DNA of 64,000 nucleotides from Planctomycetota bacterium (GTDB lineage: Bacteria > Planctomycetota > B15-G4 > SIAN01): assembly GCA_016795285.1 (NCBI GenBank), contig JAEUIC010000011.1, positions 124,001 through 188,000 on the forward strand. Direction: 5' to 3'. The position numbers were made by a program, and so were the translations under genes. The notes under the pieces are model-generated. The model did no database searches. It had not been told where the DNA came from and saw nothing but the letters and a program-made list of their open reading frames with translations. This document shows positions 9,317 through 63,557 of this stretch, one piece after another (position 1 is the stretch's first letter; each line of letters opens with the position of its first letter).

Positions 9317-10255
9317 TCACGGCAGCGGCTCGCCCTCGCTGCGGGTGAGCTCGCGGTGGAGCGCCTGCAACCGCGCCGTCACCGGCCCGCGCCGGCCGTC
9401 GCCGATCGTGCGGCCGTCGACTTGCGCGACGGGCGCCAACTCACCCAATGTCCCGGTGGTGAACATCTCGTCGGCGGTCCAGATCTCGGTGAGGCTCAGG
9501 TTCTTCTCGGCGCACGGGATCGCGTGCTTCGCGCAGAGCTCGAGCACGATCGCGCGCGTGATGCCGGGCAGGCAGGCGTCGGCGAACGGGGTCAGCACGA
9601 CGCCGCGCCGCACCACGAAGACGTTGGTCGAGTTGGTCTCCGAGACGAAGCCCTGCAGGTCGAGCATCAGCGCCTCGTCGACGCCCGCCACGTTCGCCTC
9701 GATCTTGGCGAGGATGTTGTTGATCAGGTTGTTGTGGTGGATCTTCGAGTCGACGCACTGCGGCGGGTTGCGGCGGATCGCCGCGGTGACGAGCCGCTGG
9801 CCGCGCGCGTCGTCGACCGGCACGCCGCGCGTGTCGGCGCGCCCCTTCCACTCGGGCAGCACGATCAGCGTGCAGCCCTGCTGGTTGTTGCGCGGGTCCA
9901 TGCCCGAGGTGACCTTCACGCCGCGCGTCAGCGTGAGGCGCACGTGCGCACCGTCGCGCATGCCGTTCTTCGCGAGGCACTCGACCACCGCGCGCTTCAC
10001 CTGCTCGCGCGTCGGCACGCCGGCGAACGCCATCGCGTGGGCCGAGGCGAGCAGGCGGTCCAAGTGGCGATCGAAGGCGAAGATGCGGCCGTCGTAGACG
10101 CGCAGCCCCTCCCACACCGCGTCGCCGCCCTGCACCACGCTGTCGAAGACCGAGACCTTCGCCTGCTCGCGCGGCAGCAGCTCGCCGCCGACGTGGGCGA
10201 AGATTGCGGCGTTGCGCGGGTCGGGGAGCTTTTGCGCGGGCGCGGCGGGATTCAC
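9317..10255 (-). CDS. Class IV PLP aminotransferase, branched-chain aminotransferase type
   Basis: 312 residues. The fold-type IV landmarks are in order: the active-site segment GGDAVWEGLRVYDGRIFAF, the PLP lysine in CVDSKIHHNNLIN (about residue 161), the glutamate in GFVSETNSTNVF (about residue 196), and GITRAIVLEL. This is the IlvE-like group, so a branched-chain amino acid or a D-amino acid/4-amino-4-deoxychorismate substrate are all possible. The GTG start (10253-10255) overlaps the TGA of the sulfotransferase-like gene, forming GTGA, so the two are translationally coupled. That fixed partner makes a specialised role more likely than routine isoleucine, leucine or valine synthesis. Confidence 0.83.
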   Translation of the reverse strand: MNPAAPAQKLPDPRNAAIFAHVGGELLPREQAKVSVFDSVVQGGDAVWEGLRVYDGRIFAFDRHLDRLLASAHAMAFAGVPTREQVKRAVVECLAKNGMRDGAHVRLTLTRGVKVTSGMDPRNNQQGCTLIVLPEWKGRADTRGVPVDDARGQRLVTAAIRRNPPQCVDSKIHHNNLINNILAKIEANVAGVDEALMLDLQGFVSETNSTNVFVVRRGVVLTPFADACLPGITRAIVLELCAKHAIPCAEKNLSLTEIWTADEMFTTGTLGELAPVAQVDGRTIGDGRRGPVTARLQALHRELTRSEGEPLP

Positions 10256-11091
10256 TTCGCGGCTCCAGTCGGCGAGCGGCGCGCGCGGATCGCGTGCTGC
10301 ATCAGCTGCTCGTACCAGGGGCGGCACTCGGCCGCGAGCGGCGCGAGCTCGGCCGGCATCGGCTCCGTCTTCGCGCGCCACGCGTCGAAGCCGGTCGACT
10401 TGCGGACGTTCTGGTACCAGTGCGGCGCCCAGACGCCGTCGAACGGACGCGGCCCGGCCGGCCAAGAGAGCATCGCGGCGTCGAAGGGGAGCGCGACGCG
10501 CCGGCAGAGCTCCGCCAGCACGCCCTCGGGATCGGAGAGGAGCTCCTTCGCGTCGAGCACCGGCGGCGCCTGCCCCGCCGCGTGCAACTCGTCGAGCAGC
10601 TCCGCCTGCGCCTTGATGCCGACGTCGCGCAGCGTCGGCGCGCGGACCTGGTGGCGCAGCGTCAGCACGACCTCGGCGGGATCGCGGATCAGCAGCACGT
10701 TCACCGTCTGGCGCAGGAAGGCGCGATCGAGCTCGACGAGGTGATGCGCCATGTGCTTCTGGAACCAGATCGGCCGGTCGCACGGCCCGAGCACGACGTC
10801 GCGCACCACCTTGGCGCCGTCGTTCTCCTGCGCGCGCAGCACGTCGTCGCGGCCGGGGTGGTCGGCGCCGCTCACGCGCAGGTAGTGGGCGTAGAGCGGC
10901 TCGTCGACGACGCGCGTGTCGGCGCGCTGCGCGAAGGCGTACATCAGCGCGGTCGAGACGTTGCGAGGTCCTGACCAGAGGCAGAGCGGACGCGACGACG
11001 GCGAGGATCGCGCCGGCGCGTCGGGCGCTCGGAAGAGGCCGGGCGGCGGCACGCTGCTGCCGGCACGGTTGGGCCAAGTCGGTCCGCTCAT
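10252..11091 (-). CDS. Sulfotransferase-like P-loop protein paired with an aminotransferase
   Basis: 279 residues. CLWSGPRNVSTALMYAF (about residues 37-53) is the sulfotransferase-type P-loop that binds the 5'-phosphosulfate of PAPS, and NVLLIRDPAEVVLTL is the 3'-phosphate-binding strand-loop. The first 35 residues are Pro- and Ser-rich and probably disordered. The stop codon overlaps the start of the class IV aminotransferase gene. From memory, plants have a branched-chain-aminotransferase-like protein with an N-terminal P-loop domain fused to a class IV aminotransferase, so this pair may be the unfused form. The true substrate is unknown and sulfonation itself is unproven. Confidence 0.65.
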   Translation of the reverse strand: MSGPTWPNRAGSSVPPPGLFRAPDAPARSSPSSRPLCLWSGPRNVSTALMYAFAQRADTRVVDEPLYAHYLRVSGADHPGRDDVLRAQENDGAKVVRDVVLGPCDRPIWFQKHMAHHLVELDRAFLRQTVNVLLIRDPAEVVLTLRHQVRAPTLRDVGIKAQAELLDELHAAGQAPPVLDAKELLSDPEGVLAELCRRVALPFDAAMLSWPAGPRPFDGVWAPHWYQNVRKSTGFDAWRAKTEPMPAELAPLAAECRPWYEQLMQHAIRARRSPTGAAK

Positions 11092-11158: not shown

Positions 11159-12007
11159 TCAGGCGCTGACGCTGGCGACCGTGCGCTCGAAGAGGCCCTT
11201 CGCGCGCGTGCCGCAGCGCGGGCAGCGGCGGCCGTCGGCGAGGTAGCTCTGCGGCTGGCCGACGAAGCGCTCGATCAGGACGACGTCGCGGCAGACGGAG
11301 CAGTAGGTGATCTCGCGATCGCCGCTCGGCGCCTCGGGCGCGTAGACGTGCTCGAGCCCGGCGCGCTCGCCCGCGGCCACCGCCTGCGCCACCTCGGCCG
11401 CGGCGCGTTCGGGCCGCTCGAGCAGGAGCTTCCGCTGCGCGCGCACGTGCCACGGTATCGCGCCGTCGATCGCCTTCAGCGAGAGCGCCGTCTCGAGCAG
11501 GTCGCGCGCGGCGACCTCCGCGGCGAGCGGGGTGACCACCTCGACCCAGACGCCCGCCTGCCGCAGCCGCGCCAGCCGATCACGCACGTCGTGCGCGCGC
11601 GCCGCGCCGCACGGGCGGCTCGACAGCGGAGCGACCTCGAGCGCGACCGCATCGAGTCGCGGCGCCAGCGCGACGCACGCCTCGGCGCTCGGCAGCTCGC
11701 GCGTGCGCAACGCCGTGGCGAACCCCTCGCCGCGCGCCAGCTCGGCCGCGGCCAGCAGCGCCGGCAGCGCGTGGAGCGGTTCCCCGTCGGCGAAGGCGAC
11801 GGTGGCGCACCGGCCGGCACGCGCCAAGCGCGGCAGCGCGGCGAGCGGCCACGCGGGATCGATCGAAGCGGCGCGGCGCCCGCTTGCAGCCGCCGGCTCG
11901 GCGAAGCCGACCACCAGCGCGCGCGAGCCCGGCAGGACGTGGTAGAGGTCGAGCGCCTCGATCGGCCGCGAGGCGACGCGGACGAGCGTCGGAACGGCGG
12001 ACAACAT
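11159..12007 (-). CDS. AmrS-like protein lacking the radical SAM cysteine motif
   Basis: 282 residues, start ATG 12007 after a GGAGG ribosome site. The order of segments follows the AmmeMemoRadiSam radical SAM enzyme: LDLYHVLPGSRALVVGF, then VAFADGEPLHALPALL where the family has YTYNEPTVF, then RLRQAGVWVEVVTPL, then IPWHVRAQRKLLLERP, then GLEHVYAPEAPSGDREITYCSVC. Where the family carries CxxxCxxC after the first segment, this protein has GFAEPAAASGRRAAS with no cysteine. The C-terminal zinc ribbon is intact: CSVC (about residue 238) and CPRC (about 264). I infer a TIM-barrel pseudoenzyme or a protein using another cofactor. Assignment to the family rests on these motifs, not on a search. Confidence 0.65.
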   Translation of the reverse strand: MLSAVPTLVRVASRPIEALDLYHVLPGSRALVVGFAEPAAASGRRAASIDPAWPLAALPRLARAGRCATVAFADGEPLHALPALLAAAELARGEGFATALRTRELPSAEACVALAPRLDAVALEVAPLSSRPCGAARAHDVRDRLARLRQAGVWVEVVTPLAAEVAARDLLETALSLKAIDGAIPWHVRAQRKLLLERPERAAAEVAQAVAAGERAGLEHVYAPEAPSGDREITYCSVCRDVVLIERFVGQPQSYLADGRRCPRCGTRAKGLFERTVASVSA

Positions 12008-12125
12008 GACGGCTCCTCCACCCCCGGCGCGACGACGCCTCCGGGTGGGGCCGCGGGTCGCCGCGCGTCCGCCTCTAGGGCGAGCCGCGCGGGCGGTAAC
12101 CCGCAAGAAGCCGTGCGTCAGCCGC

Positions 12126-13610
12126 TCAGAAGGTCTCGGTGCCGGCCGCGTTCAGCTTGTCGATCTCGGCCTGCGCGAACGGGAAGCCGGCCGCCTTCGA
12201 CGCGTCGATCGCCTTCTGCCCGGCCGCCTTCACTTCGGCGACCATGTCGGGGATGCCGGCGAGGTTGTTGGCCGCACGGATCGCCTTCGAGAGCGCGGTC
12301 GCGTAGTTGGTGCTGACCGTCGCGCGCTCCCCCTTCGCGAGCTTCTCGGCCGCGCCGTCGAGGCTGCGGTTGATCTCGCTCATGAACGCCTTCGCGTAGT
12401 TGGTCGCCTGGCGCAGCTCGTAGGCGACCTCCTCGTCGACGTCCTTCAGGTTCTTGTAGTTGGGGTTGTTGTCGCGGAACCGCTTGCGCAGCACGTAGGC
12501 GCGGCCGTAGTGCTCGAGCTTGCTCTCGAACGTTGCGATGATCTCGGTGTCCCACCAGACGTCGGGACGCGGGAAGGGATCGGCCGCGTTGTAGCGGCGC
12601 TTCAGCGACTCGGCCCACGCCTTCACCGTGCCGATGTTGGCGCCGGTCGGGAAGCGCGTGAGGTAGTACTCGAGGCGCTCCTCGACGAAGTAGCGCGCCG
12701 TCGCCGGGTCGTTCAGGTAGTCCTTGCCCTTGAAGGCCTTCGACTTGTCGTCAATGTACATGTCGTAGAAGGGCTTCAGGTTCGAGAAGAAGTAGGCGTC
12801 CTCCTGCCGCTCGTCGTGCACCTGCACGGTCTTGTTCTTCTGCTCGAGGATGCGGTCGCGCACGACCTTCGCCGAGACGTGGTCGGCGCTCCCCTCCTTG
12901 ACGCCCTTCAGCACTGCGTCGATCTCGGCGATGGCGAGGTCGACGTTGTTGTTGGCCGCGAGGCTCTCCGCCTTCGCGATGCGCTCGCGCACGTCGTCGC
13001 CGCTGCCGAGCGCCTTCACCATCACGAAGATGAGGATGCCGAGCGAGACGATCGAGATGCCGACCGTCATCATCGGGTTGCGGCCGCTGCCGCGCGTGAG
13101 GCGCCGCTCGGCGCGCGACGAGCCGGTCTCCTCGCCCTCCTCCTCTTCCTCGTCGCGCCCGCGTCGGCCGCCGCGCGCGGCGGTGGCGCGCGACGGGCGG
13201 CGCGCCGAGCTGCTGCTGGCCGCGGCACGGACCGGCGCCGCGGGGCGCGCGGCCGGAGCCGGGCGCGGGGCGGGCGCCGCCGCCGCAGGCGCCGCCGGAG
13301 CGGCCGCCGGCCGCGGGGCCGCCGTGCTGCCGCCCGCCTTGAAGGCGAGCTGCGTCGTGCCGACCTGCACCACGTCCCCGTCGAGCAGCACCTTGTCCTT
13401 CACCTTCTGGCCGTTCACCAGCGTCCCGTCGGGGCTGCCGAGATCGATCAGCTTCAGGTTGGCGCCGCTCTTCAGGATCTGGCAGTGCTTGGGCGCCCCG
13501 CCGGCGACGCGGATCTCGCAATCCTCGGCCGAGCCGACGAAGGTGACGTCGTCGAGGAGTTCATGGCCGCGCTCCTTGCCGCTCTGAAGCTTCACCATCA
13601 ACCAGGCCAT
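12126..13610 (-). CDS. FHA-domain single-pass membrane protein with helical extracytoplasmic tail
   Basis: 494 residues. Residues 1-92 are an FHA domain (DVTFVGSAEDCEIRV, APKHCQI, IDLGSPDGTLVNGQ). The Gly-Arg and Ser of the phosphothreonine pocket are replaced (VGS, APK), though one His is kept. Residues 95-175 are Ala/Pro-rich, then a run of Glu and Arg. Residues 180-199 (MMTVGISIVSLGILIFVMVKA) are a membrane span. The remaining 295 residues are charged and helical with no recognised domain. By topology the FHA side is cytoplasmic and the tail is outside. The start is ATG 13610; the gene lies 92 bases after the FHA-CAP gene and the two proteins share layout and the APKxC motif. Confidence 0.65.
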   Translation of the reverse strand: MAWLMVKLQSGKERGHELLDDVTFVGSAEDCEIRVAGGAPKHCQILKSGANLKLIDLGSPDGTLVNGQKVKDKVLLDGDVVQVGTTQLAFKAGGSTAAPRPAAAPAAPAAAAPAPRPAPAARPAAPVRAAASSSSARRPSRATAARGGRRGRDEEEEEGEETGSSRAERRLTRGSGRNPMMTVGISIVSLGILIFVMVKALGSGDDVRERIAKAESLAANNNVDLAIAEIDAVLKGVKEGSADHVSAKVVRDRILEQKNKTVQVHDERQEDAYFFSNLKPFYDMYIDDKSKAFKGKDYLNDPATARYFVEERLEYYLTRFPTGANIGTVKAWAESLKRRYNAADPFPRPDVWWDTEIIATFESKLEHYGRAYVLRKRFRDNNPNYKNLKDVDEEVAYELRQATNYAKAFMSEINRSLDGAAEKLAKGERATVSTNYATALSKAIRAANNLAGIPDMVAEVKAAGQKAIDASKAAGFPFAQAEIDKLNAAGTETF

Positions 13611-13701: not shown

Positions 13702-16700
13702 TCAGTCGCGGATCAGGTTGCCTTTGTACTCGCGGCCGCCGCCGAAGTTCTGCGTCCAGTACGAGCCGCTCTGCCCGGCCCCCATCTCGGTGTGGCTGTC
13801 GTAGAGCAGGTTGCGATGGTGGCCCGACGAGTGGCACCACCCCTGCAGCACCTCGAGCGGCCCGCTCGAGCCGACCGCGCAGTTCTCGCCGGCGCCCTGC
13901 GCATAGCCGGCCAGCTTCATGCGCTGCTCGGGCGTGGTGCGCTCCGGATCGTCCTCCTCGAAGTGGGAGAGCGTCCCGTGGCGGGCCATCCACTCGCTGT
14001 GGCGATCGGCCGCCTCCCAGAGCTTCTCGTTCAGCGCCAGCACCCGCTTGCCGAGCATCGCCCGGTAGAGGTTGGTGACGCGCACCTGCTCGATCTCCTC
14101 GCGGCTCGGGCCCCCGTCGCGCGGCGCCGCGCTGCCGTTCAGCAGCCAGACCTTCGCGTCGAGGTCGAGGCGGTTGCGCTCGTACTCGTCGCGCGCGAGG
14201 TTGCGGAGATGGACGGTGCGCGTCGTCGTCGGCAGCGCGAAGGCGGGGCGCAGCGACTGGTCGACGTCGTCGTTGGCGGCGCCGAGATCGGCGAGGAGCG
14301 CGCGCACGAACTGGAGCTGCTCGAGGGTCTGCTGCAACGTCGCGCCGATCGAGACCTGCGGCTCGGGCGGCGGATCGGACTCGCGCCCCCAGATCGCGCG
14401 CACGGCGTCGACGCGCAGGTCGACCTCGCGCTGCACCTCGGGATAGAGCTGCGCCTTCTCCGGCGGGCAGCCCGGCGGGTGGTAGGGATAGAAGTAGGTC
14501 GTCTCGTCGAAGATCAGCGCCAGCGCGTGGCGGCGCGCGTCGTTCAGCAGCTCGAGGCGCTCGCGCAGCTTGGCCAGGCGCGGCTGCTCCGGCGCCGCCT
14601 CGAACTGCCCCTTCAGCACGAGCCGTCGCGCCTTCAGCTCGGCGATCGCGACGGCCGGCGCCGCGGCGGAGAGCTCGAGGATGCGGGCGCGCACCGCCGC
14701 CGGCGCCTCCTTGCCGGTCGCCGCCGCCGCCAGCGCGGCGCGCATCTCGTCGGCGAACGTCTCGCGCGCCTTCTCCTCCCAGGTGAGCCAGCGGTCGCCG
14801 TGGCGGACGAACCCGCGCGGCGGGACGCGGTCGAGTCCGCGCTGGAAGGCCAGTGCGGAGTCGATCGAGCCCTGCCATTCGGGATGGTCGCCGAGCTTCT
14901 CGAGCGCGCCGAAGAAGTCGTCGGCCGAACCGGCCGCGAGCGCGAGGAAGGCGCGATCGAGCAGCTCCTCGCCGGCCAGCGGCAGCCGCGCCGACAGCGA
15001 CAGGAGCGACGCGCCTTCGAGCTCGGTCGCCGGCAGCGCGAGCGTCTCGGCGCCGACCTGCAGCGAGAGGAGGCGGCCGTCGCTGCCGGCGATGCGCGCG
15101 CGCCGGCCGTCGCGCAGCTTCACGTCGGCGTTGCCCGGCAGCCGCGTCGCCAGCAGCTCGGTCACGCGACCGGCGAGGCGCTGCGGTCGGCGCGCCCGCT
15201 CGTGGTCGCGCGCGATCTCCCCCTTCGCGTCGCTCGGCGCCGCCGCGTCGAGCGCCTGCTCGAGCCGCTCGAGCGCGCCGGCGAAGTCGCCCGCCGCGAT
15301 CAGCGCGCGCGCCTGCTGCTGCAGCGGCGAGACGCCCGCGCCGGCGGCGTCGCTCGCGCGGCCGGCGTCGCCCGCGGCCGAGCCGCTCGGCGCGCGCTCG
15401 GCGGCGGCGACCGGCTTGCGGCCGACGATCGAGTCCTCGGTCAGCTCGAGCAGCGACGTCTTCTTCGGCTCCGTGCCGGGCTTGTCGCGGTGGTGCTTGC
15501 GGCGCGGGAAGGGGCGGTTGTTGCCGTACTTCGCGTCGAGGATGTCCTCGATCTCGTCGGCCTTGTCGAGCATCTCGTACCAGATGTCGGTGCCCTTGAA
15601 CGGGCGCATGTTGTCGTCGTCGAACTCGCCGATGGCGACGAGCGCCTGCCCGTGCTCGAGCTGGTCGGCGACGCGCGCGAGGATCTCCTCGCCCGCCTTG
15701 CGCGCCGCGCCGTTCACCCGCGCGAACGCCGCGGCGAGCTGCTTGGCCTCCGCATCGCCGCTGGCCTCGACGCGCGAGAGCACGAAGATCGCCTTGCCGT
15801 ACTCCTGCTTCGCGACCTGCTTGTCCGCCTCGGCGACGCAGTTGGCGACGGTCAGCTGCGCCGGCAGCGTGATCCCCTCGAGGTCGGAGGAGCTCGCCAC
15901 GGTCGGCTGCTTCGCGCGCGCGTCGAGGTCGTCGAGCAGCTTCTGCCCCTGGTCGGCGAGCGGCGCGAGGTCGGAGTTGCGGTCGATGAAGCGGACCAGG
16001 TCGCCGCGCGAATCGCCGCGCAGGTCGCTCGCCACGCGGCGGCGCAGCGCGTCGAGGTCGACCTTGCCCTCGTCGTAGCGCTTCTTGCGCAGCTTGATCG
16101 CCCGCTCCTGCTCGAGCGCCGCCAGCTTCTCCGCGCTGTCGTCGCCGCCGATCACGCTGGCGAGCTGCTGGATCGCCTCCTCGAAGCGGCACTCGCTGTT
16201 GAGCTCGATCGCCTTGGCGATCTGCGCCTGCTGGCGCTGGCGGGTCGAGTCGCTCGGGCCGTCGTCGCCGCCGCCGAAGATCATCACGGCCCCGGCGAGC
16301 AGGCCGAGCACCGCGATCGCGCCGACCAGCGCGGCCGCCGGCGAGCCGCGCTTCGCGCTGCTGCGGGCGCGCGGCGCCGGTCGCTCGTCGCGCGGGGCGG
16401 GACGGGCGGCGGCGCGCGGCGCGGCGGCGCGAGCGGCGGGCGCGGGCGCGCGAGCGGAGGGGGCGGGCGCGGCGGGCTCCGCCGGCGGAGGCGCGGCGGG
16501 CGCTGCGACGGCGGCCGGCAGCACGGTCAGCTGGTAGGCGCCGATCTTCAGGACGTCGCCGACGTTGAGCAGCGCGCGCCCCACTGGCTGCTCGTTCAGC
16601 AGCGTCTCGTGGTCGCTGCCGAGATCGACGACCCGCAGCGCGCCGTCGGCAAGCTCGATCCGGCACTGCTTCGGGGCGATGTCGCCGCCCGGCAGCACCA

Positions 16701-16800
16701 GATCGCAGTCGATGGCGCCGCCGATGATCAGCACCGAGTCGGAGAGGGGAACGGCGCGCCGGGCGCCGCTCTTCGTGTCGAAGAGCTGCAGTTGGAACAC
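13702..16800 (-). CDS. FHA-transmembrane protein with C-terminal CAP (SCP/TAPS) domain
   Basis: 1032 residues. Residues 1-95 form a degenerate FHA domain: LIIGGAIDCDLVL, APKQCRIEL and LLNEQPVG, lacking the Arg, Ser and His that read phosphothreonine. An Ala/Pro-rich linker precedes a membrane span at about 154-176 (AAALVGAIAVLGLLAGAVMIF). A long charged middle follows. The last 130 residues are a CAP domain: ALNEKLWEAADRHSEWMARHG, LSHFEEDD, GENCAVG and SGHHRNLL, with WTQNFGGG at the end. These His and Glu residues form the usual CAP tetrad. CAP domains are typically secreted, so this one should lie outside the cytoplasm. Function of bacterial CAP domains is unsettled; ligand binding or wall interaction is plausible. 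Confidence 0.7.
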   Translation of the reverse strand: MFQLQLFDTKSGARRAVPLSDSVLIIGGAIDCDLVLPGGDIAPKQCRIELADGALRVVDLGSDHETLLNEQPVGRALLNVGDVLKIGAYQLTVLPAAVAAPAAPPPAEPAAPAPSARAPAPAARAAAPRAAARPAPRDERPAPRARSSAKRGSPAAALVGAIAVLGLLAGAVMIFGGGDDGPSDSTRQRQQAQIAKAIELNSECRFEEAIQQLASVIGGDDSAEKLAALEQERAIKLRKKRYDEGKVDLDALRRRVASDLRGDSRGDLVRFIDRNSDLAPLADQGQKLLDDLDARAKQPTVASSSDLEGITLPAQLTVANCVAEADKQVAKQEYGKAIFVLSRVEASGDAEAKQLAAAFARVNGAARKAGEEILARVADQLEHGQALVAIGEFDDDNMRPFKGTDIWYEMLDKADEIEDILDAKYGNNRPFPRRKHHRDKPGTEPKKTSLLELTEDSIVGRKPVAAAERAPSGSAAGDAGRASDAAGAGVSPLQQQARALIAAGDFAGALERLEQALDAAAPSDAKGEIARDHERARRPQRLAGRVTELLATRLPGNADVKLRDGRRARIAGSDGRLLSLQVGAETLALPATELEGASLLSLSARLPLAGEELLDRAFLALAAGSADDFFGALEKLGDHPEWQGSIDSALAFQRGLDRVPPRGFVRHGDRWLTWEEKARETFADEMRAALAAAATGKEAPAAVRARILELSAAAPAVAIAELKARRLVLKGQFEAAPEQPRLAKLRERLELLNDARRHALALIFDETTYFYPYHPPGCPPEKAQLYPEVQREVDLRVDAVRAIWGRESDPPPEPQVSIGATLQQTLEQLQFVRALLADLGAANDDVDQSLRPAFALPTTTRTVHLRNLARDEYERNRLDLDAKVWLLNGSAAPRDGGPSREEIEQVRVTNLYRAMLGKRVLALNEKLWEAADRHSEWMARHGTLSHFEEDDPERTTPEQRMKLAGYAQGAGENCAVGSSGPLEVLQGWCHSSGHHRNLLYDSHTEMGAGQSGSYWTQNFGGGREYKGNLIRD

Positions 16801-16917: not shown

Positions 16918-18000
16918 TCACGCCCCGGCGCCGGCGCGCACCTCGCTCGAAAGGTCGCGCGGCTCGACCGGGCGGCCGGGATCGGCGAGCGCGACCATCC
17001 GCTGCACCTCGTTCTGCAGCTCGCGGACGTTGCCGGGCCAGCGGTAACGCCGCAGCAACGCGAGCGTCTCGGGCGCATAGGTGGGCGGCTGCGGGCGGCC
17101 CGACTTGCGGGCGGCCTCGATCGAGAGGTGGTCGAGGAGCAGGAGCAGGTCGTCGCCGCGCTCGCGCAGCGGCGGCAGCACGATCTTGATCGGGCTCAGG
17201 CGGAAGAAGAGGTCCTCGCGGAAGAGCCCCTTCTTCACCAGCTCGGCGAGGTCCTTGTTGCTGGCCGAGAGGAAGCGGACGTTGATCTTGATCGGGGCCG
17301 AGGCGCCGACCGGCCGGATCTCCCCCTCCTGCAGCGCGCGCAGCAGCTTCTTCTGCAGCGCGCTGCTCATGTCGCCGACCTCGTCGAGGAAGAGCGTGCC
17401 GCGATCGGCCATCTGGAAGCGCCCCTTGCGCATCCGATCGGCGCCGGTGAAGGCGCCCTTGCTGTGGCCGAAGAGCTCGCTCTCGAGCAGCGATTCGGGG
17501 AACGCGGCGCAGTTCTCGGCGACGTAGGGGCCGTGCTTGCGCGACGAGAGTTCGTGGATCGAGCGGGCGATCTGCTCCTTGCCGGTGCCGCTCTCGCCAT
17601 GGATCACGACGGTCGCGTCGGTCGGCGCCACCTTCAGGATCAGCCGGAAGACGGCCAGCATCTTCGGCGAGCGCGCGACGATCTTCGGGAAGTGGGCGCA
17701 GAGGGTGTCGACGTCGGCGGTCTCGGCGAGCGCCGCCGCGGCGGCGAGTTCGGCGGCGGTCGGCGCGACGAGCGGGAGCGCGGGCGCGCCGCTGCTGTCC
17801 GCTTCGGCCGCCGCGCGGGCAGCGGCCGTCGACGCCGCGGCCGCGGCGGTCGCGGCGCCCGCGGCGAGCAACTCGTCGAGGTCGTGGCGCAGCGCCGCCG
17901 GCCCGTCGGCGCCGAGCTCGTCCTTGTACTCGGAGAGGACGCCGGCGAGGCCGAGCTTCAAGGCGCGGCGCACCGGATCGCCCGCGCGGTCAGAACTCAT
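16918..18000 (-). CDS. Sigma-54 activator AAA+ ATPase without a DNA-binding domain
   Basis: 360 residues. Residues about 1-97 are Ala-rich with no response-regulator, GAF or PAS domain. The central AAA+ module is complete: Walker A GESGTGKE (135-142), the sigma-54 contact loop GAFTGA (182-187), Walker B GTLFLDEVGD (201-210), the arginine region REDLFFRLS (261-269), and WPGNVRELQNEV (321-332). It ends 28 residues later with no Fis-type helix-turn-helix, and the 117 bases before the next gene leave no room for one. Such proteins can activate sigma-54 polymerase from solution or depend on a partner. The gene overlaps the end of the helicase gene by 11 bases and lies upstream of the FHA-CAP gene. 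Confidence 0.85.
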   Translation of the reverse strand: MSSDRAGDPVRRALKLGLAGVLSEYKDELGADGPAALRHDLDELLAAGAATAAAAASTAAARAAAEADSSGAPALPLVAPTAAELAAAAALAETADVDTLCAHFPKIVARSPKMLAVFRLILKVAPTDATVVIHGESGTGKEQIARSIHELSSRKHGPYVAENCAAFPESLLESELFGHSKGAFTGADRMRKGRFQMADRGTLFLDEVGDMSSALQKKLLRALQEGEIRPVGASAPIKINVRFLSASNKDLAELVKKGLFREDLFFRLSPIKIVLPPLRERGDDLLLLLDHLSIEAARKSGRPQPPTYAPETLALLRRYRWPGNVRELQNEVQRMVALADPGRPVEPRDLSSEVRAGAGA

Positions 18001-34341: not shown

Positions 34342-35508
34342 TCACGGCTCGATCGGGACGGTGAAGGTGCGCGCGAAGCGGTCGCGCGTCGCGTCGGTCA
34401 CGACCACCTGGACGGTGCGCGCCGCGGCGTCCGGCGGCGCCGGCAACTGCAGCGCGAGCCGGTAGCGCAACGACTCGCCCTCGACGGCGGGCGGCGGCAT
34501 CGGCGCGCGCACCACTGCGCCCCCCGCCGCCACGCTCCACGCGTGCAGCCGATCGACGCCGTCGCGCGGCGAGAGCAGCACCTCGCCCGCCACCTCGAGC
34601 TGCCCCGCGTCGGTGCGCCGCGCACGGAACGCGACCTCCGGCTCGAGCCGGAACGGCGCGCGCGACGCCGGCGCCAGCAGCCGCTCGCGCTTCGCCACGA
34701 TCTCCTCGGCGAGGTCGTCGCAGAGCTGCGCGACGAGCGCCTCCGTCACCTCCTCGCGCACCTGCCCGGCGCGCTGGCAGAGCAGCCCGGCCGGCACCAG
34801 CAGCGACGCGAGGTAGAAGCTCGTCGAGGCGCCGGCCGTGCGATCGACGAAGTCGAGCGCGCACGGGCGCGGCTTCAAGCGCGGATCGAGCAGCGCGAGG
34901 CGGCGGTCGAGCGCCGGCGCGATCGGCGCCGCGCCGCGCGCGCCCGACAGCGCGGCGACGTCGAAGAACTCGCAGTCGAACTCGGCGCGCACGTCGTAGT
35001 CGCGGTCGTCGAGGAAGTAGCAGAACGGCCCGCCGAGCGCGAAGAGGACGAGGTTCGGCACGAACAGCCCGTTGGTCTCCGACTCGACCACCTCGTCGTA
35101 GCGCATCTCGCAGCGCAGCACGAGGTCGGCCTGCCGCGCGAGCGCCTGCTCGATCCACCACGCCTCCTGCTGGCGCGGCGTGCGCTCGGCGGCGAACTGC
35201 TCGGCGCTCACCCCTTCGGGGTAGTCGAGCGCGCTCACCTGCACGAAGCAGCGCTCCGCCAGCGCGGCGGCGCACGCGGCCGTCGCCAGCGGCCCGTCGA
35301 CGGTGAGCCGCAGCGGCTCCGGCGGCGGCTCGCGCGGCGGCGCCTCGGGATCGAGCGGCGGCCGCGGCGGCGCCGGCGGGCGCAGCGCGACGGCGGCGGT
35401 GCGCACCGGGATCAGCGCGACGTGGAACGGCAGCGGCGGCGTCTCCTGGCGCGCGAGCCCGGCGCAACCGGGCAGCAGCGCGCCGAGCGCGAGCAGGACC
35501 CACTTCAT
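34342..35508 (-). CDS. Lipoprotein of unknown function, end of kinase-FGE operon
   Basis: 388 residues. MKWVLLALGALLPGCAGLARQ is a signal peptide with the lipobox LPGC. Residues 35-65 are Pro-rich. The rest holds segments such as ADLVLRCEMRYDEVVESETNGLFVPN and DVRAEFDCEFFDVAAL, with no family I recognise. Its ATG (35506-35508) overlaps the kinase stop (35505-35507), so it is tied translationally to the kinase. An envelope partner of the kinase's outer domain is plausible. Confidence 0.6.
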   Translation of the reverse strand: MKWVLLALGALLPGCAGLARQETPPLPFHVALIPVRTAAVALRPPAPPRPPLDPEAPPREPPPEPLRLTVDGPLATAACAAALAERCFVQVSALDYPEGVSAEQFAAERTPRQQEAWWIEQALARQADLVLRCEMRYDEVVESETNGLFVPNLVLFALGGPFCYFLDDRDYDVRAEFDCEFFDVAALSGARGAAPIAPALDRRLALLDPRLKPRPCALDFVDRTAGASTSFYLASLLVPAGLLCQRAGQVREEVTEALVAQLCDDLAEEIVAKRERLLAPASRAPFRLEPEVAFRARRTDAGQLEVAGEVLLSPRDGVDRLHAWSVAAGGAVVRAPMPPPAVEGESLRYRLALQLPAPPDAAARTVQVVVTDATRDRFARTFTVPIEP

Positions 35509-38500
35509 CGCGACCCTCCCGTCGGCGCGCGGCGGAACCGTTCCGCGTCGTCGCGCTCCATCGAATCGAGCGCCACTCGCGCCGCCACCACGCAGCGGAA
35601 GCCGAGCGACGCGCGCCGCGCATCGATCCACGCCACCTCGACCTTCGCGAAGTCGAACGCCGTGGTGTCGAACGCGCCGCCGGCGGCGAACCGCTCGCGC
35701 GACGCGGGATCGGCCGGATCGGGCGAAGTCGCCGTCCACTCGGCGACGTTGCTGCAGAGATCGACGATCCCCTCCGGCGTCGCATCGAGCGCGCCGTCGC
35801 CGCCGACCGCGCCCGGCCCCTGGTCGCGCCGCCCGACGCGCAGCCGCTCGCGCTCGAGCGGCACGCCGCTTCGCGCCCCCGCCCACGGCCGGTAGCCGGG
35901 TCCGCGCACCGTCCACTCCCACTCGAGCAGCGTCGGCAGCCGCTTGCCGCACCAGCGCGCGAAGGCATCCGCCTCGTGCCAGTCGACGCCGGTCATCGGC
36001 AGCTCGGGCGGTTCCGCCAGCAGCCGCACGAGCAGTTCGTCGGCGCGCTGCGCATCGCCGCCGGCCCGCCCGTCGCTCCACGGCGCGGCACTGCGATAGC
36101 CGCGCTCGTCATCGGCGAGGAACGCGAGGAACTGCCCCTGCGTCACCTCGGTCGCGTCGACGTAGAGGTCCTCGATCGCGCCCGCTGCGACCTCCTGCTG
36201 CCAGCTGCGCGGCGGCGCGGCGTCGGCGGCGTAGAGCGGCAATCCGGCGGCGACGAAGAGGCGGTTCTCCTCGGCCTCGACCTGCCCGCCGAAGACGTAG
36301 CGGCCGAGGTCGTTGCCGCGCACGCGCACCATCGCCACCGCGTCGCGAAGCCCGTGGCCGCCGACGATGCGCTCGGGCGTGAAGCGGTGCAGCGTCGGCA
36401 GGCGGCGCCGCTCGAGCTGCGGCGGGCCGACCGTGCCGTCGCGATCGGTGGCGCGCACCTCGATCTCGATCTCGCGCCCCGACCAGGTGAACGGGAACGG
36501 CTCGGCGAGCCAGCCGCTCCAGTAGCTCTCCGCCCCGACGCTCTTCTGCGCCAGTTCGAAGGCGATCGCGCGCGCGCCGGCGCCGGCGCCGACCGGCCGC
36601 GCAAGCGCCGTCACCTGCGCCACGCCGTTGTCGTCGCGCGCGCGCACCTCGGCGAACCAGCTCTCGTTCGTGCCGTCCTCGCGCAGCGTCGCGTTGAAGT
36701 CGCGCAGCGGGCTCGGTTGCAGCAGCTCGACCGCGGGACCGGCGAGGCTCACGCGCCAACCGACCGAGCCGATCGTCGGCGGATTGCCCGCCGCATCGTG
36801 CGCCTCGACCACGAGCCGCCACTCGCCGTCGGCGTCGACGCCGCTCTCCTCCCACGGCCGCGGCACCGCGAACGAGCGCGCCTCGCCGGCGACCAGCGCC
36901 TCCGCCAGCGTGCCGCGCCGCACCACGGTCGCGCTCCCGGTCGCCGCGTCGGCAGCGCTCCGCTCGAGCCGCCAACTGACGCGCGCCGGCGTCTTCTGCC
37001 CGCCGATCGGCGGGTCGGCGAGCTCGACGACGAGCTCGGGCAGCGACTCCTCGGCGCGGCGCACCACCGGCGGCGACTCGAAGCCGCGCAGCGCCACGCT
37101 CGGCGCACTGCGATCGACGACCAGCAGCGCCCGCCAGTCGCGCTCCGGATCGGCGCTCGCCGGCCCGCCGCGCGCGCCGGCCTCGACGCGCCAGCCGCGC
37201 AGCTGCAGCGGAACGACCCCTTCGGCGGGCAGCGACAGCGTGCCGCTCGCCGCGTTCTCGACCTCGCGCTCGAGGCGCGCGTCGGCGACGACCGTCGCGC
37301 TCCCGTCGGGCGCGTGCATCGTCGCCTGCAGCTGCGCCGGCACCGCGTTGACGCGCCGCAACGCGAGGCTCGCCTCGCTCGCGCACGTGAAGACGACCGC
37401 ATCGGGCACGAGGCGGCGCGGCCCGTCGCCGACGTCGAGCGTCGCGGCGAAGTCGACCTCGTCGACGCTGAAGTCGAACGGCAGCTCGCCGGCGAGTTCG
37501 CCGTCGCGCGACCGCTCGGGGGCGCGCGCCACCGACTCGCTCTCGTCGAAGCGCCAGGCGAGCCGCCCCGCGTAGGGGGCGCCGCCGCGCAGCGCCTTCA
37601 CCTCGGCGAGGTCGAGGTCGAAGGCGAGCGCGCGCGGCTCCGACCACTCGCGCAGCACGTTCCCCTCGACGTCGCGGACCGCCAGCACAAGCGTCGCCGG
37701 TCGCTGCAGCGTCGCCTGGAAGCGCGGCGCCGCGCGCGGTCCGACGAACCAGCGCTCGCCGCTGCGCAGCGCGGTGAAGCGCGGCGCCGACTCGGCCGCG
37801 AGCGCGCTCGCCACCAGCGGCAGCGGCTCCGATTCGGGGAAGCGGCGCGTCGCGCGCCGGCCGCTGCGATCGCGCGCCTCGATCTCGAACTGCACGCTCG
37901 CGCGCGACGTCCCGGCCGCCGCCGCGTCCGCCTCGAACAGCGCGGCGAGCGGCGCCTCGAAGCGCGACCGCCCCGCCTCGAGCTGCGTCGCCGTCGCCGC
38001 CACCTCGCGGCCGTCGACGCGCACCGCGAGCCGCTCGAGGTCAGCTGCCGCCGCGCCGACCACCTCGATCGACAGCGACTGCCCGCGCGGATCGAGCGCG
38101 CGGCCGCGCCGCCCCGCCACCTCGATCGCGCCGAGCGACCACGCCGCGCCGCCGATCCAGACCAGCTCGAGGTCGACCGAGCGGCGGCCCGCATCGGGGC
38201 CGTCGACCACACGGAGGGTGGCGCGCCGCGAGAGCCGCTCGGTCGCTTCGGCGGTCGCCTCGACGACGATCTGCCCGCCGGCGTCGACCGTCGCGCGGAA
38301 GCCGTCGACGGCGCGCGCCTCGCTCGCGCCCGCCTCGCCGCTGCGCCCGCGCGCGTCGGCGAGCAGCAGCTCGGTGCCGGGTGCCAGCGCGAGGTCGCTC
38401 GCACGCAGCCGTTGCGTGGCGCGCTCCGGCCCGAACCAGAGCGGCGCCTCGGCGATCGGCCGGTCGCTCTCGAGCTCGAACAACGGGAAGCGCGCCTTCG

Positions 38501-40169
38501 CCAGCGCGTCGGCGACGTCGCGCTGCTTGATGCGCTGCACGATGAAGCCGGTCGCCGCCAGCAGCACCAGCAGCAGCGGGGCCGCCCAACGCAGCTGCTG
38601 CGCGAGCGGCGGATGGACGACGCGATCGAGCTCGGCGAAGGCGGCCGCGCTGGTGGCGAAGCGCTGCTCGCGATCGCGGCGCAGGCAGCGGTCGACGAAC
38701 TGCGCGAAGGCGCGCGGCACCTTGGCGCCCGCGTCGGCGAGGCGGCGCGCCTCCTGCGTGAGATGGACCTCGAGCCAGTCCATGCGGCGCTTCGGCGCCG
38801 TGAAGGGGAGCTCGCCGGTGACCATCTGGTAGGCCATCACGCCGAGCGAGTAGAGGTCGGAGCGACCGTCGAGCGCGACGATCGAGCGGCCCGGCAGCAG
38901 GTGGGCGCACTGCTCGGGCGATGCGTACTCGGGCGTGCAGGAGCTCGAGCGGTGGATCGCGCTCGCGGAGTCGTCGCTGCTCGCCGCGGCGGGCTGCAGC
39001 GCGCGCAACGTCGAGGTGGCGCTGCGCGGCGCGCTGCCCGCGGACGCGCCGCCCGCCGTCGCGCCGCCGGCCGCGCCGCTCGCGCCGCCGCTCGCCGCCG
39101 GCTTCTCGGCGCCGCCGACGTACTGGCCGATGCCGAAGTCGATCACCTTCACCCGCTCGACGCCGCCGGCGCCGCGCACGAGGAAGACGTTGCGCGGCTT
39201 CAGGTCGAGGTGGAGGATCGACTCGGTCGCGCTCAGGTGGTGCGCGGCGCGCAGCGCGTCGACGATCTGCAGCGTGAGCTCCATCGCCACCTTCGGCGGC
39301 AGGCGCTTCTCGCGCTTCAAGCGCGTCTCGAGGTCCTCGCCCTCGAGCAGCTCCATCACGAAGCAGCAGCTGCCGTCGGGCAGCTCGTCGAAGCTCTTCC
39401 AGTCGACGATGTTCGGATGGGAGAGGCGGGTGACGCGGCGCGCCTCGTCCTTGAACTCCTGCACTTCGGCGGCGGTGCAGGCGGCGCGCGCGTTCATCAC
39501 CTTGATGGCGACGCGCGAACCGAGCGTCTCGTCGCGCGCCTCGAAGACGGCACCGAAGCCGCCGCGGCCGATCTCGCGCACGATGCGGTACTTGCCGCTG
39601 ATCCAGTCGCCCGGCGCCAGCGCGACGCCCGCCTTCGGCGCCACCTGCGCCGCGACGGCGCGCGCCACCGGCGCCGGCAGCGGCGGCAGCGCCACGACCT
39701 GCGCCGCGCCGCTCGCCAGCGTCTCGCCGCCCGCCTGCTCGAGCGCCGCGCGCGCCTGCTCGCCGGCCAGCACCAGCGCCGGTCGCGGATCGCGCGAGAG
39801 CGTCGCGCCGAGCCCGTCGAGCGAGCCGGCGCGCCGCGTGTCGCCGCCCGCATCGTCGCGCAGCACCACGATGCGCGGCGGCAGCGAAGCGCCGCCGATC
39901 GTCGCGCCGCCGGCGGCCAGCGCCGCGGCGATCGCCCGCTCGAAGCGCAGCCCGAGCCGCGCATCGGAGGGCGACTCGCCCGGCAGCAGCTGCGCGACGC
40001 GCTTGCCGAAGTCGAGCGTCTCCTGCGCATCGGCCGCCTCGCGCGCGAGCTCGGCGCGCAGCGCGGCGACGCGCGCCGGCTCCCGCGCCGCGCTGCCAGC
40101 CGGCTGGCCGCGCGCCGCATCGACCTGGTCGAGCAGCAGTCGTTCGAGCGCGTCGAGCGGAGCGTTCAC
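35505..40169 (-). CDS. Transmembrane Ser/Thr kinase with extracytoplasmic FGE-sulfatase domain
   Basis: 1554 residues. The kinase domain lies at about 190-520: GRGGFGAV (201-208), Lys223 in AIKVM, LHLDLKPRN with Asp322, DFG at 344-346. The catalytic loop has HLD, not HRD. The activation segment carries an Ala/Gly/Ser-rich insert of about 55 residues before TPEYASPEQ. A membrane span sits at about 528-545. The next 790 residues are beta-rich, with repeated Ig-like strands. Residues about 1335-1535 are an FGE-sulfatase domain (VDATEVTQGQFLAFL, MTGVDWHEADAFARWCGKRLPTLLEWEWT, VDLCSNVAEW). The domain is outside the cytoplasm and probably binds a ligand. The start is GTG 40169, overlapping the upstream gene's stop. 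Confidence 0.85.
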   Translation of the reverse strand: MNAPLDALERLLLDQVDAARGQPAGSAAREPARVAALRAELAREAADAQETLDFGKRVAQLLPGESPSDARLGLRFERAIAAALAAGGATIGGASLPPRIVVLRDDAGGDTRRAGSLDGLGATLSRDPRPALVLAGEQARAALEQAGGETLASGAAQVVALPPLPAPVARAVAAQVAPKAGVALAPGDWISGKYRIVREIGRGGFGAVFEARDETLGSRVAIKVMNARAACTAAEVQEFKDEARRVTRLSHPNIVDWKSFDELPDGSCCFVMELLEGEDLETRLKREKRLPPKVAMELTLQIVDALRAAHHLSATESILHLDLKPRNVFLVRGAGGVERVKVIDFGIGQYVGGAEKPAASGGASGAAGGATAGGASAGSAPRSATSTLRALQPAAASSDDSASAIHRSSSCTPEYASPEQCAHLLPGRSIVALDGRSDLYSLGVMAYQMVTGELPFTAPKRRMDWLEVHLTQEARRLADAGAKVPRAFAQFVDRCLRRDREQRFATSAAAFAELDRVVHPPLAQQLRWAAPLLLVLLAATGFIVQRIKQRDVADALAKARFPLFELESDRPIAEAPLWFGPERATQRLRASDLALAPGTELLLADARGRSGEAGASEARAVDGFRATVDAGGQIVVEATAEATERLSRRATLRVVDGPDAGRRSVDLELVWIGGAAWSLGAIEVAGRRGRALDPRGQSLSIEVVGAAAADLERLAVRVDGREVAATATQLEAGRSRFEAPLAALFEADAAAAGTSRASVQFEIEARDRSGRRATRRFPESEPLPLVASALAAESAPRFTALRSGERWFVGPRAAPRFQATLQRPATLVLAVRDVEGNVLREWSEPRALAFDLDLAEVKALRGGAPYAGRLAWRFDESESVARAPERSRDGELAGELPFDFSVDEVDFAATLDVGDGPRRLVPDAVVFTCASEASLALRRVNAVPAQLQATMHAPDGSATVVADARLEREVENAASGTLSLPAEGVVPLQLRGWRVEAGARGGPASADPERDWRALLVVDRSAPSVALRGFESPPVVRRAEESLPELVVELADPPIGGQKTPARVSWRLERSAADAATGSATVVRRGTLAEALVAGEARSFAVPRPWEESGVDADGEWRLVVEAHDAAGNPPTIGSVGWRVSLAGPAVELLQPSPLRDFNATLREDGTNESWFAEVRARDDNGVAQVTALARPVGAGAGARAIAFELAQKSVGAESYWSGWLAEPFPFTWSGREIEIEVRATDRDGTVGPPQLERRRLPTLHRFTPERIVGGHGLRDAVAMVRVRGNDLGRYVFGGQVEAEENRLFVAAGLPLYAADAAPPRSWQQEVAAGAIEDLYVDATEVTQGQFLAFLADDERGYRSAAPWSDGRAGGDAQRADELLVRLLAEPPELPMTGVDWHEADAFARWCGKRLPTLLEWEWTVRGPGYRPWAGARSGVPLERERLRVGRRDQGPGAVGGDGALDATPEGIVDLCSNVAEWTATSPDPADPASRERFAAGGAFDTTAFDFAKVEVAWIDARRASLGFRCVVAARVALDSMERDDAERFRRAPTGGSR

Positions 40170-43100
40170 CGGCCACCTCCGAACCAGATCGAAAGGCCGA
40201 AGCCGGGCGTCGAGAAGCAGCCCACGGCGTCGAGCTCGCCGTCGCCATCGACGTCGGCCAGGGTCGCCGTCGCCGGCAGGCTCGGCGCGGTCGCCGAATC
40301 GCGCAGCAGCTGGTCGGGCGCGACGGCGAAGCTGCCGCCGCCGCGCTGCAGGAAGAGGGCGAGCGTCGGCTGCGACGGATCGCCGTTGGCGCACAGCAGG
40401 TCGAGATCGCCGTCGTCGTCGGCATCGCCGATCGCGATGGCGACCGGCTTCTTCAGCGACCCGTCGGTGCCGATCTCCTGGCGCGCCGCGAAGCCGCGCG
40501 GCGGCGCCGGCGCGCGATCCTGGCGCCAGACCACCAGCCGATCGCGGTTCTTGCTGGGCGCCGCGAGGTCCAAGCGGCCGTCGCCGTCGAGATCGGCGAG
40601 CGCCACCGCTTCGGGGCGCACCGAGCCGTTGGCGAGCGTCACGCTCGGCGCGCTCTCCGGACCGCCGACGGCGCCGAAGAAGAGGAGCAGCGACGCGTCG
40701 GCCAGCGCCAGGTCGACCCGCCCGTCGCCGTCGACATCGCCGGCGGCGAGGCCGCTCGGCTGGCTGATCCCGGCGGTGAGGAAGCTCGGCGGCGCGAACG
40801 CGGCCGGTCCGACCTGGCGGAACCACGCGATCCGCTTGTTCCCCGCATCGGCCACCGCGAGGTCCTGAGCGCCGTCGCCGTCGAGATCGGCGGCGACGAT
40901 CGCCAGCGGATCGGCGCCGACCACGCCGGGCGACTGCGCGACCCCGAGCGAGAGCTCGACGTCGGGCGCGGCGGCGAAGCGCGGCGGCGCGCCGCCGTCG
41001 TTGAAGAAGAGCGCGACGATCGCCTCGTCGACCGGCCCGCTGCCGTCGCGATCGACTTGCGCGGTGACGGCGAGGTCGAGGTCGCCGTCGTCGTCGAGGT
41101 CGGCAGCCGCCAGCGCCTTCGGCACGTCGGTGAGGCCGACGCCGCCGAGGATGAAGTCGGGCGCGTTCGGGAAGAGGCCGGGGCTCGACTGCAGCCAGAC
41201 GAAGAGATGCGGCACCAGCGCGTCGTTGGCGAGCAGCGCGGCCACGTCGCGATCGCCGTCGCCGTCGAGGTCGGCGATCAGCGGCGCCGCCGGGTTGCCG
41301 AAGATGCGCGGCGGCACGAGCGTGCGCTCCGGCGTCGCCGCGAACGGCACCGCGCGCTGCGTCGCGAACCAGGTGAGCGTGTCGCTGCCCGCCTCGGCCG
41401 CCAGCAGGTCGAGCGCGCCGTCGCCGTCGAGGTCGGCGGCGAGCAGCGCGGCCGGCTCGCTCGCGCCGCTGGAGAGCGCGAGGACGAGGTCGGGATCGCG
41501 ATCGCCGCCCTGCCCGAAGGTGCCGTCGGGTTTCTGCGCGAAGACGAGGAGCGTGCCGAACAGCTCGCTCGCCGCGACGAGGTCGTCGTCGCCGTCGCGG
41601 TCGACGTCGGCGGCGATCAGCGCGGTCGGTGCGCCCGAGGTGAAGAGGCGGCCGTGCGCTTGCGCGACGAACTGCAGCGGCGCGACCTGCCGGAAGAGGA
41701 CCACCTCGCTCGTGTCGCGCGAAGTGACCGCGAGGTCGGCGTCCCCATCGGCGTCGGCGTCGAGCGCGACCAGGTCGCGCGGCGCGTCGAGCGCGGCGAG
41801 CAGCTGCGCCGTCGGCGCCGTCGCGAAGCCGCCGCCCGCCGCCTGCACGAAGAGCGCGACGTCGTCGCCGCTGCCGTTCGCCACTGCGAGGTCGAGCCGG
41901 CCATCGCCATCGATGTCGGCTGCGGCCAGCGCGACCGGATCGTGCGTCGTGCCGCCGCCGCCGACCACGCGGTTCTTCGCCGACGCGAAGCCGCCCGCCT
42001 CGCCGTAGAGGAGCGCCACGTCGTCGCTGCCGCCGTTGGCCACCGCGAGGTCGAGCGCGCCGTCGCGATCGAGGTCGGCCACCAGCAGGTCGGCGGGATT
42101 CGCGATGGCGGCGGTCACCACGAGGCTCGGCACGGTCGGGAAGGTGCCGTTGCCGGCCTGGAAGAAGAGCGCCACCGAGCCGGAGCCGCCGTTGCCGCGG
42201 CTCGCGCACGCCACGTCGAGCCGCCCGTCGCCGTCGAAGTCGGCGAGCGCTACGGCGGACGGGCGCGGCGTGCCGGCCGGCCCGCCGAGCGGCAGCGCAT
42301 CGGCGACGAAGCTCGCCCCCGCCGCCTTCCGGAGCAGCCGCACCGAATCGGAGAGCTCGCTCGCGACCGCGAGGTCGAGGTCGCCGTCGCCGTCGAGGTC
42401 GCCGCGCGCCAGCGCCACCGGCCGATCGGCGAGCGCCGTCGAGGAGAACGAGCGCGCCGCCACCTCGACCGTCGCGCGCACCGTGCGCGGCGTGGTCACC
42501 TCCTGGCCGCTGCCGTACTCGTCGTCGAACGGCACGAGGCGCAGCAGCACGCCGCCCTCCTGCACCACCGCATCGCGCTCCCAACGGAAGAGGCCGGTGG
42601 TGCCCTCCTCGGCGGCGCGCAGCGGCGTCGCGCGCTCGACGAGACGCCACGGCGCGCATGGCGCGGGCGGCGGATCGAAGGGCGTCCCGTCGGTCGCGGT
42701 GGCGACGTAGGCGCGCTGCGCCGCCGGCTCGAAGGCGACGATCGTGCGCCGCTGCGCGATGCCGCCGACGGCGACCAGATCGCCGTGGCCCGGCAACGCG
42801 GCGAGCCGCAGCCCGGCATCCCCGAGCGCGAGCGACGCCGGCGCGACGGCCAGCCCGCTCGCCACCACGCGCGCCACGCCGACGTCGGGACCGCCGAGCG
42901 CCAGCGACTGCAGCTCGAAGGCGCCGTCGCCCTGCAGATCGGTGCAGCAGAGCAGCGTGCGCGAGCGCGGCTCGTAGGCCAACGCGCCCGGCCGTTCGAG
43001 CGAGCCGGACTGCAGCGCGAGCGGGCTCGTGATGCCGGTGGTGACGTCGACGCGCAGCAGCCGCCCGAGCCGGCCGCCCGCGCCGAGGAAGGTGCGCTCG

Positions 43101-44845: not shown

Positions 44846-45021
44846 CGACGTCGCTCCCGTCCGCTCCCCGCCGCGCCGCCCGACCGCGCAGGCAAGGCGA
44901 CGTGCTGCGACGAACGCGAACGGACGCACGCGCCCTTCGCGGCGCTAACTTGGCCGCGCCCCATCGGCCGAGGAGCCGTGGCGGACGGCCCGATCCGAGC
45001 GGTGCGCCGGAGACCCCCACC

Positions 45022-57255: not shown

Positions 57256-57942
57256 ATGGCCGACGCGAAGCTCACCGTGACCGCGGCGTGCGCCAACGTC
57301 TTCCTCTTCCTCACCACGTTCCGGCGCAACTCGGCGACCTCGAAGCTCCCCGTGAAGGAGCTGCACGCGGCGCTCGACGCCGAGCTGCAGGCGGCGCGGC
57401 AGCGCGCCGAAGCGGCGCCCGGCGGCCGCGCGCTGTTCGAGCAGGCGCTCTACCCGCTGGCGGCGACCGCCGACCAGGTGGTCCTCACCTCGCAGTGGTC
57501 GCACAAGTCGACTTGGTCGGTGAACCTGCTCGAGACGCGCCTCTTCAAGTCGGCCGAAGGGGGCAAGCGCTTCTATCGCATCGTCGAGGAGGTGCTCTCC
57601 GACCCGCGCGAAGAGGCGCGCGAACTCGCCGAGCTGCTCTTCACCTGCATGGCGCTCGGCTTCCAGGGGCAGTGGAAGAACGAGCGCAAGGAGTACGAGC
57701 GCCACCGCCAGCTGCTCTTCGACAAGGCGCGCCTGCCCGCGCTCGGCGCCGCGCCGCTCGCGCCCGAGTGCTACGGCCAGAACCTGGTGCGACCGGTCGC
57801 GAAGCTCCCCACCGCCGGCGTGCTGCGCATGGCGCTGGTCGCGGTCGGCGTGCTGCTGCTCGCGCTGCTCGCGGTCTGGTTCGTGACGAGCCAGCGCCAG
57901 GAGTTCGTCGACGACCTCGATCGCGCCGTCGAGACGCGTTGA
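57256..57942 (+). CDS. tssL: T6SS membrane subunit TssL (DotU/IcmH)
   Basis: 228 residues. The cytoplasmic DotU/IcmH domain shows LTVTAACANVFLFLTTFRRN, then WSVNLLETRLFKSAEGGKRFYRIVEEVL and AELLFTCMALGFQGQW, which are family landmarks. A single C-terminal membrane span lies at about 193-216 (LRMALVAVGVLLLALLAVWFVT). It joins TssM in the inner-membrane complex and contacts TssK. The start is ATG 57256; no strong ribosome site, consistent with coupling to tssK. Confidence 0.9.
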   Translation: MADAKLTVTAACANVFLFLTTFRRNSATSKLPVKELHAALDAELQAARQRAEAAPGGRALFEQALYPLAATADQVVLTSQWSHKSTWSVNLLETRLFKSAEGGKRFYRIVEEVLSDPREEARELAELLFTCMALGFQGQWKNERKEYERHRQLLFDKARLPALGAAPLAPECYGQNLVRPVAKLPTAGVLRMALVAVGVLLLALLAVWFVTSQRQEFVDDLDRAVETR

Positions 57943-58030
57943 GCGCGCCCGCCGCCGTACCCGCCCGCCGCCCTGTCCTTCCGCGCTGTCCTTCCGCCAA
58001 GCCCCTCGCCCCGCCCGTGAGGCCCCGCCC

Positions 58031-62470: not shown

Positions 62471-62473
62471 GCG

Positions 62474-63478: not shown

Positions 63479-63557
63479 TCGGCAGGGTTTGCGTTCGTCG
63501 TCGCGTGGCCGCTCCACAGGGGGGTGGCCGGAGGCTTCGCCGCGAGACGCGCCGCCG

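Follow-up and report, generated by a model that had tools for sequence, protein, structure and literature searches.

The gene at positions 11159-12007 of the window (the whole 64,000-nucleotide stretch of Planctomycetota DNA analysed here) encodes a protein that is predicted to keep the barrel and the C-terminal Cys4 ribbon of the radical SAM protein AmrS, although the residues of the iron-sulfur cluster and SAM sites that are fixed in AmrS have gone from it. That it is a pseudoenzyme which kept both of these parts appears well supported by the sequence comparisons, and it is very likely, judging from the residues lost, that no radical chemistry is left in the protein. With modest confidence, the gene is read here as a maintained pseudoenzyme derived from AmrS that works by binding.

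The gene and its product

The source genome comprises 5.77 Mb in 47 contigs and is 91% complete. An earlier preliminary description, made from the window alone, had given the coordinates correctly; the gene lies on the minus strand, and all motifs quoted there were located in the protein.

11159-12007, minus strand: triad-less AmrS-like gene, 282 aa plus stop (stop codon 11159-11161, ATG 12005-12007)
12013-12019, minus strand: GGAGGAG Shine-Dalgarno-like site, 5 bases ahead of the ATG

GC content at the three codon positions is 0.80, 0.57 and 0.95, the last value (GC3) resembling that of neighbour genes. The full set of cysteines in the protein is 67, 111, 133, 236, 239, 262 and 265.

Relationship to AmrS

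Searches with NCBIfam profiles matched residues 52-277 of the window protein to TIGR04337, the profile for AmrS, which is the radical SAM enzyme of the AmmeMemoRadiSam system (E = 2.9e-13); the score of 49.4 bits falls far below the curated cut-off of 220 bits. A homologue from a second genus (G003) scored 73 bits (E = 1.4e-20) and a canonical relative 274 bits in the same profile search. The link of the window protein to AmrS is not a chance one. No significant match was returned by a Pfam search or by a PDB sequence search with the window protein alone, and a profile search over PDB sequences returned no AmrS entry.

An AlphaFold model based on 82 sequences (pLDDT 88, pTM 0.88) contains six alternating strands and helices. 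Because this alignment consisted mostly of canonical AmrS rows, the prediction was rerun with the three triad-less sequences only (pLDDT 68.5, pTM 0.70), and the barrel again showed the same succession of strands and helices. A six-strand radical SAM barrel is therefore predicted both with and without the canonical rows. When the two models were compared with the PDB in Foldseek, QueE came top for both (3.4e-5 and 1.3e-6), and pyruvate formate-lyase (PFL) activase was found within the top ten with TM-scores of ~0.5 to 0.6; the resemblance is at the level of the barrel (rmsd about 6 angstrom), and the scores of other barrels are close behind. The preliminary description had proposed a profile search and a structure prediction as checks on its AmrS assignment, and the profile and fold link was found in both. 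The kept order of AmrS segments that it claimed was also borne out, the barrel segments standing in family order.

Loss of the cluster and SAM site

The CxxxCxxC triad binds the [4Fe-4S] cluster that is needed for SAM cleavage. All 79 canonical relatives in the alignment carry it; they were selected on that basis, yet every full-length relative outside the triad-less group had it as well. The window protein is altered at the following sites.

11843-11899, minus strand: place of the canonical GCNxxCxxCQN cluster loop, residues 37-55 (EPAAASGRRAASIDPAWPL), shortened and cysteine-free
11774-11794, minus strand: degraded YTYxEP motif (FADGEPL region), residues 72-78, with E76 and P77 alone kept
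11624-11638, minus strand: degraded DLKxF motif (EVAPL), residues 124-128, lysine lost

Model confidence is low near residues 41-50 in the cluster-loop region. CxxxCxxC was absent from all three frames of the coding strand, in the window gene and in G003, and a frameshift is therefore excluded as the cause of the loss. The missing triad and the degraded YTYNEP-like motif reported in the preliminary description were thus both confirmed, with no triad elsewhere in the protein and the tyrosine of the motif gone; the loss of the DLK motif comes in addition.

Columns at least 98.5% invariant in the 79 canonical relatives were taken as family-fixed, which gave 28, of which 5 sit in an N-terminal segment absent from the window protein, so that 23 could be compared. 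Seven of these (G37, C38, C42, the third cysteine, the N of CQN, Y74 and K126) are assigned to the cluster loop or SAM site from what is known of the superfamily in general rather than from an AmrS structure, and all seven are lost in both the window protein and G003. Fifteen of the 16 non-SAM fixed positions are kept in the window protein (E17, H23, P26, P77, E156, P185, H187, G217, L218, Y222, C236, C239, R247, C262 and C265), with P163 as the sole loss, and the pattern of losses and retentions in G003 is the same. For the window protein, 7 of 7 lost against 1 of 16 elsewhere gives a Fisher p of 3e-5, which is descriptive, the split having been chosen after the alignment was viewed.

Retained features and the N-terminal segment

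11447-11458, minus strand: IPWH, residues 184-187, kept; H187 is aligned to His202 of PFL activase
11189-11302, minus strand: C-terminal Cys4 ribbon, residues 236-273 (C236, C239, C262, C265), the most conserved part of the triad-less group

His202 of PFL activase sits at the SAM site, so the retention of H187 without SAM is not simply explained; it may reflect a ligand or structural role. E17, H23, E156 and H187 probably face the barrel pocket. The Cys4 ribbon, GLxxVY and PWH are kept in all three triad-less sequences, and the ribbon, from its sequence, probably holds zinc.

An N-terminal CxxCxxxC...C segment, whose four cysteines are invariant in AmrS, is kept in G003 (CHDCHEHC...C) and missing from the window protein, a further loss beyond those in the preliminary description. 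The stop codon that ends the gene upstream lies only ~118 bases before the ATG of the window gene. Because G003 keeps the four N-terminal cysteines and the window protein starts after them, loss of the triad probably preceded that of the N-terminal segment, as far as two sequences can indicate.

Homologues and their distribution

The G003 homologue (Planctomycetota MAG IP29b_bin.26, JANQQL010000015.1) is 36% identical to the window protein; identity reaches 60% in residues 231-282 and is 23-38% in the rest, and neither C111 nor C133 is conserved in it. It bears out the suggestion that a homologue in a related genome would share the loss of the triad. In the congener G001, a 62%-identical 3' end lies on a contig that ends before the triad region, and the upstream half of the gene was sought but not found. 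The triad-less group consists of these two full-length sequences and one C-terminal fragment. Neither the AmrS-like gene nor the neighbouring sulfotransferase gene was found in the congener G002 (84% complete genome), and because the sulfotransferase gene is missing too, loss there is indistinguishable from a gap.

A contig scan of the genomes with the single window sequence gave no match. An alignment-based scan gave 39 loci. The close relatives among them are limited to those of G003 and G001, and the rest carry the triad. Locus L014 was rejected as a further triad-less case: it is triad-free, but begins past the triad position at a contig end. A search of 84,980 species genomes for the signature C[RQ]DVVLIE or ID[GAP][AS]IPWH likewise returned G003 and G001 as the only close relatives, the window's own genome possibly lying outside this collection. 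With a triad-less profile, 3 matches at E below 1e-50 were obtained from 392 genomes of the phylum, followed by a gap to ~1e-35. Within the genomes searched, the group is confined to one family, and the weaker matches in the phylum may hide others. In the tree, the two full-length triad-less proteins group together with a support of 99 on very long branches, because of which their place among AmrS is not resolved.

Gene neighbourhood and AmmeMemoRadiSam partners

10252-11091, minus strand: Sulfotransfer_5 protein, immediate downstream neighbour, in the same order in all three triad-less genomes
9317-10327, minus strand: class IV aminotransferase (branched-chain type), next downstream in the gene order
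12126-13610, minus strand: FHA protein of 494 aa, upstream neighbour, part of which has a counterpart at the same place in the second genus
16918-18000, minus strand: sigma-54 activator AAA+ protein, upstream in the second genus too

In both the window and G003, a sigma-54 activator, an FHA/TPR-like gene, the AmrS-like gene, the Sulfotransfer_5 gene and the class IV aminotransferase gene follow one another on one strand; the visible part in G001 comprises the last three in the same order. This gene order may have been kept by descent, not function. In the window, the row has one more gene, next to that of the 494-aa FHA protein (13702-16800, minus strand): its 1032-aa product has an FHA domain at the N-terminus and a CAP domain at the C-terminus, and no counterpart was found at the second-genus locus. 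The sulfotransferase and aminotransferase pair (9317-11091, minus strand) recurs across the taxonomic order without an AmrS-like gene. Genomes of family f3 in this order contain the sulfotransferase gene, mostly with the aminotransferase gene, and no AmrS-like gene was found in them. Elsewhere in the window, very long open reading frames of 3503 and 2116 aa (35505-46016 and 57641-63991, both minus strand) may in part be chance frames, given the high G+C content of the genome.

Of the AmmeMemoRadiSam genes AMMECR1 and Memo, only Memo was found in the window genome, and no canonical AmrS was found there at 91% completeness. Across the four genomes of its family, f1, neither AMMECR1 nor canonical AmrS was found, and Memo is present in all four. 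AMMECR1, Memo and canonical AmrS are all present in two genomes of family f2 (G004 and G008). Each of these two genomes carries three AmrS-like genes, with G008 giving four matches; the genes lie at separate loci (L067-L073), two of them near AMMECR1 genes. The Memo gene (AmmeMemoRadiSam protein B) of the window genome is unlinked (contig C30, locus L133, 7213-8499, minus strand) and encodes an N-terminal extension of ~115 residues.

Selection

For the AmrS-like gene, the comparison with G001, which covers 97 codons in the 3' part, gives a dN/dS of 0.44; the values for the two genes downstream are 0.31 and 0.27. The comparison with G003, in which dS is near saturation, also gives 0.44, against 0.17 and 0.20. 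The AmrS-like gene is therefore constrained, but less than its neighbours.

Proposed function and alternatives

Radical SAM chemistry needs residues that are lost here, and the protein is thus predicted to be unable to cleave SAM reductively. Binding would replace catalysis as its working mode: E17, H23, E156 and H187, together with the Cys4 ribbon, would bind the former substrate or another protein as partner, and the protein would act as an adaptor, sensor or scaffold. Candidate partners are the proteins encoded alongside it (sulfotransferase-like, aminotransferase and FHA) or the unlinked Memo protein. The selective retention of invariant residues outside the SAM site argues, at the level of sequence, for a kept binding function, and we infer that the gene probably encodes a binding or adaptor protein. 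More specifically, a role as adaptor or sensor, as distinct from a relic or a new catalyst, is put forward tentatively and may well prove wrong. A regulatory partner of an active AmrS copy in the same genome was also considered and rejected, no canonical AmrS having been found there.

A homologous fold, the loss of catalytic residues and maintenance of the gene across lineages are all found, in a small sample, and the intact frames in two genera and the dN/dS of 0.44 lend further support to the pseudoenzyme reading of the preliminary description. The gene order shared between the genera and the lack of any canonical AmrS or AMMECR1 match in these genomes count in its favour as well. Counting against a maintained binding protein are the tiny size of the group, its faster evolution than the neighbours, the failure to find it in one congener, and the identity of merely 23-38% between the two genera outside the ribbon.

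Some of the same observations would fit a decaying relic, in which AmrS lost its AMMECR1 partner and its function in the family ancestor and the gene now drifts toward loss within a conserved row. Such decay would agree with the fast evolution (dN/dS 0.44), the missing N-terminal segment of the window protein and the lack of any copy found in the congener or in neighbouring family f3, despite the sulfotransferase gene there. It is nevertheless unlikely, if deserving of serious weight: both genera have an intact frame and retain an identical set of 15 of the 16 invariant residues outside the SAM site, the Cys4 region is 60% identical between them, and drift is not expected to remove only cluster and SAM residues.

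(Beta/alpha) barrels often change chemistry, and a barrel mouth with E17, H23, E156 and H187 could bind another metal or cofactor for non-radical chemistry, these four invariant acidic and histidine residues of AmrS being kept in both genera and the neighbours being enzymes of amino-transfer and sulfo-transfer type. The same residues are invariant in canonical AmrS, however, so that their retention is no sign of a new site, and no new conserved polar cluster was shown; such repurposing is considered improbable. It is highly improbable that the protein is still a radical SAM enzyme, with its cluster bound at some other, non-standard site. Families with other cysteine spacings do exist (ThiC, HmdB and some QueE), but the cysteines available here are limited to C67, C111, C133 and those of the ribbon, G003 lacks C111 and C133, and neither the lysine of the SAM site nor the YTYxEP tyrosine remains. 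A spurious reading frame, frameshift or misassembly is barely conceivable even though the high G+C content yields many long chance frames here, given the profile match, the GC3 of 0.95, the Shine-Dalgarno site, the absence of a triad in any frame and the occurrence of homologues, amid the same order of genes, in independent MAGs.

As a maintained pseudoenzyme, the protein would represent a natural separation of function in which the SAM and cluster residues alone are lost, and E17, H23, E156, H187 and the Cys4 ribbon would form a short candidate list for binding of the AmrS substrate or partner. A broader proposal is that the AmrS barrel was converted into a non-radical protein that either still recognises what AmrS binds, substrate or partner, or carries out new metal chemistry on it. 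This is unlikely; if true, it would separate the substrate-side residues of AmrS from SAM chemistry. A literature search returned no paper on an AmrS pseudoenzyme or on relevant triad-less radical SAM proteins, a weak negative, as the search covered few subscription papers.

Comparison with known systems

The window protein shares with AmrS (TIGR04337) the segment order, the barrel, the invariant glutamate, histidine and proline residues, IPWH, GLxxVY and the Cys4 ribbon, whereas CxxxCxxC, the YTYxEP tyrosine, the DLK lysine and the N-terminal four-cysteine segment are missing. The AmmeMemoRadiSam system also has AMMECR1, for which no gene was found in the window genome. PFL activase (PDB 3C8F, 3CB8 and 8FO0) has the predicted barrel fold in common (TM 0.49-0.60), with H187 corresponding to His202 in the alignment, but is an active enzyme with cluster and SAM lysine, has no Cys4 ribbon and is only ~10-12% identical. 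QueE from Bacillus subtilis (PDB 5TH5 and 5TGS), the best Foldseek match, likewise shares the radical SAM barrel and differs as an active radical SAM enzyme in which the cysteine triad is present. The G003 homologue has lost the same triad and SAM residues and lies in the same gene order; it differs in its retained N-terminal CxxCxxxC...C segment and in being 36% identical to the window protein.
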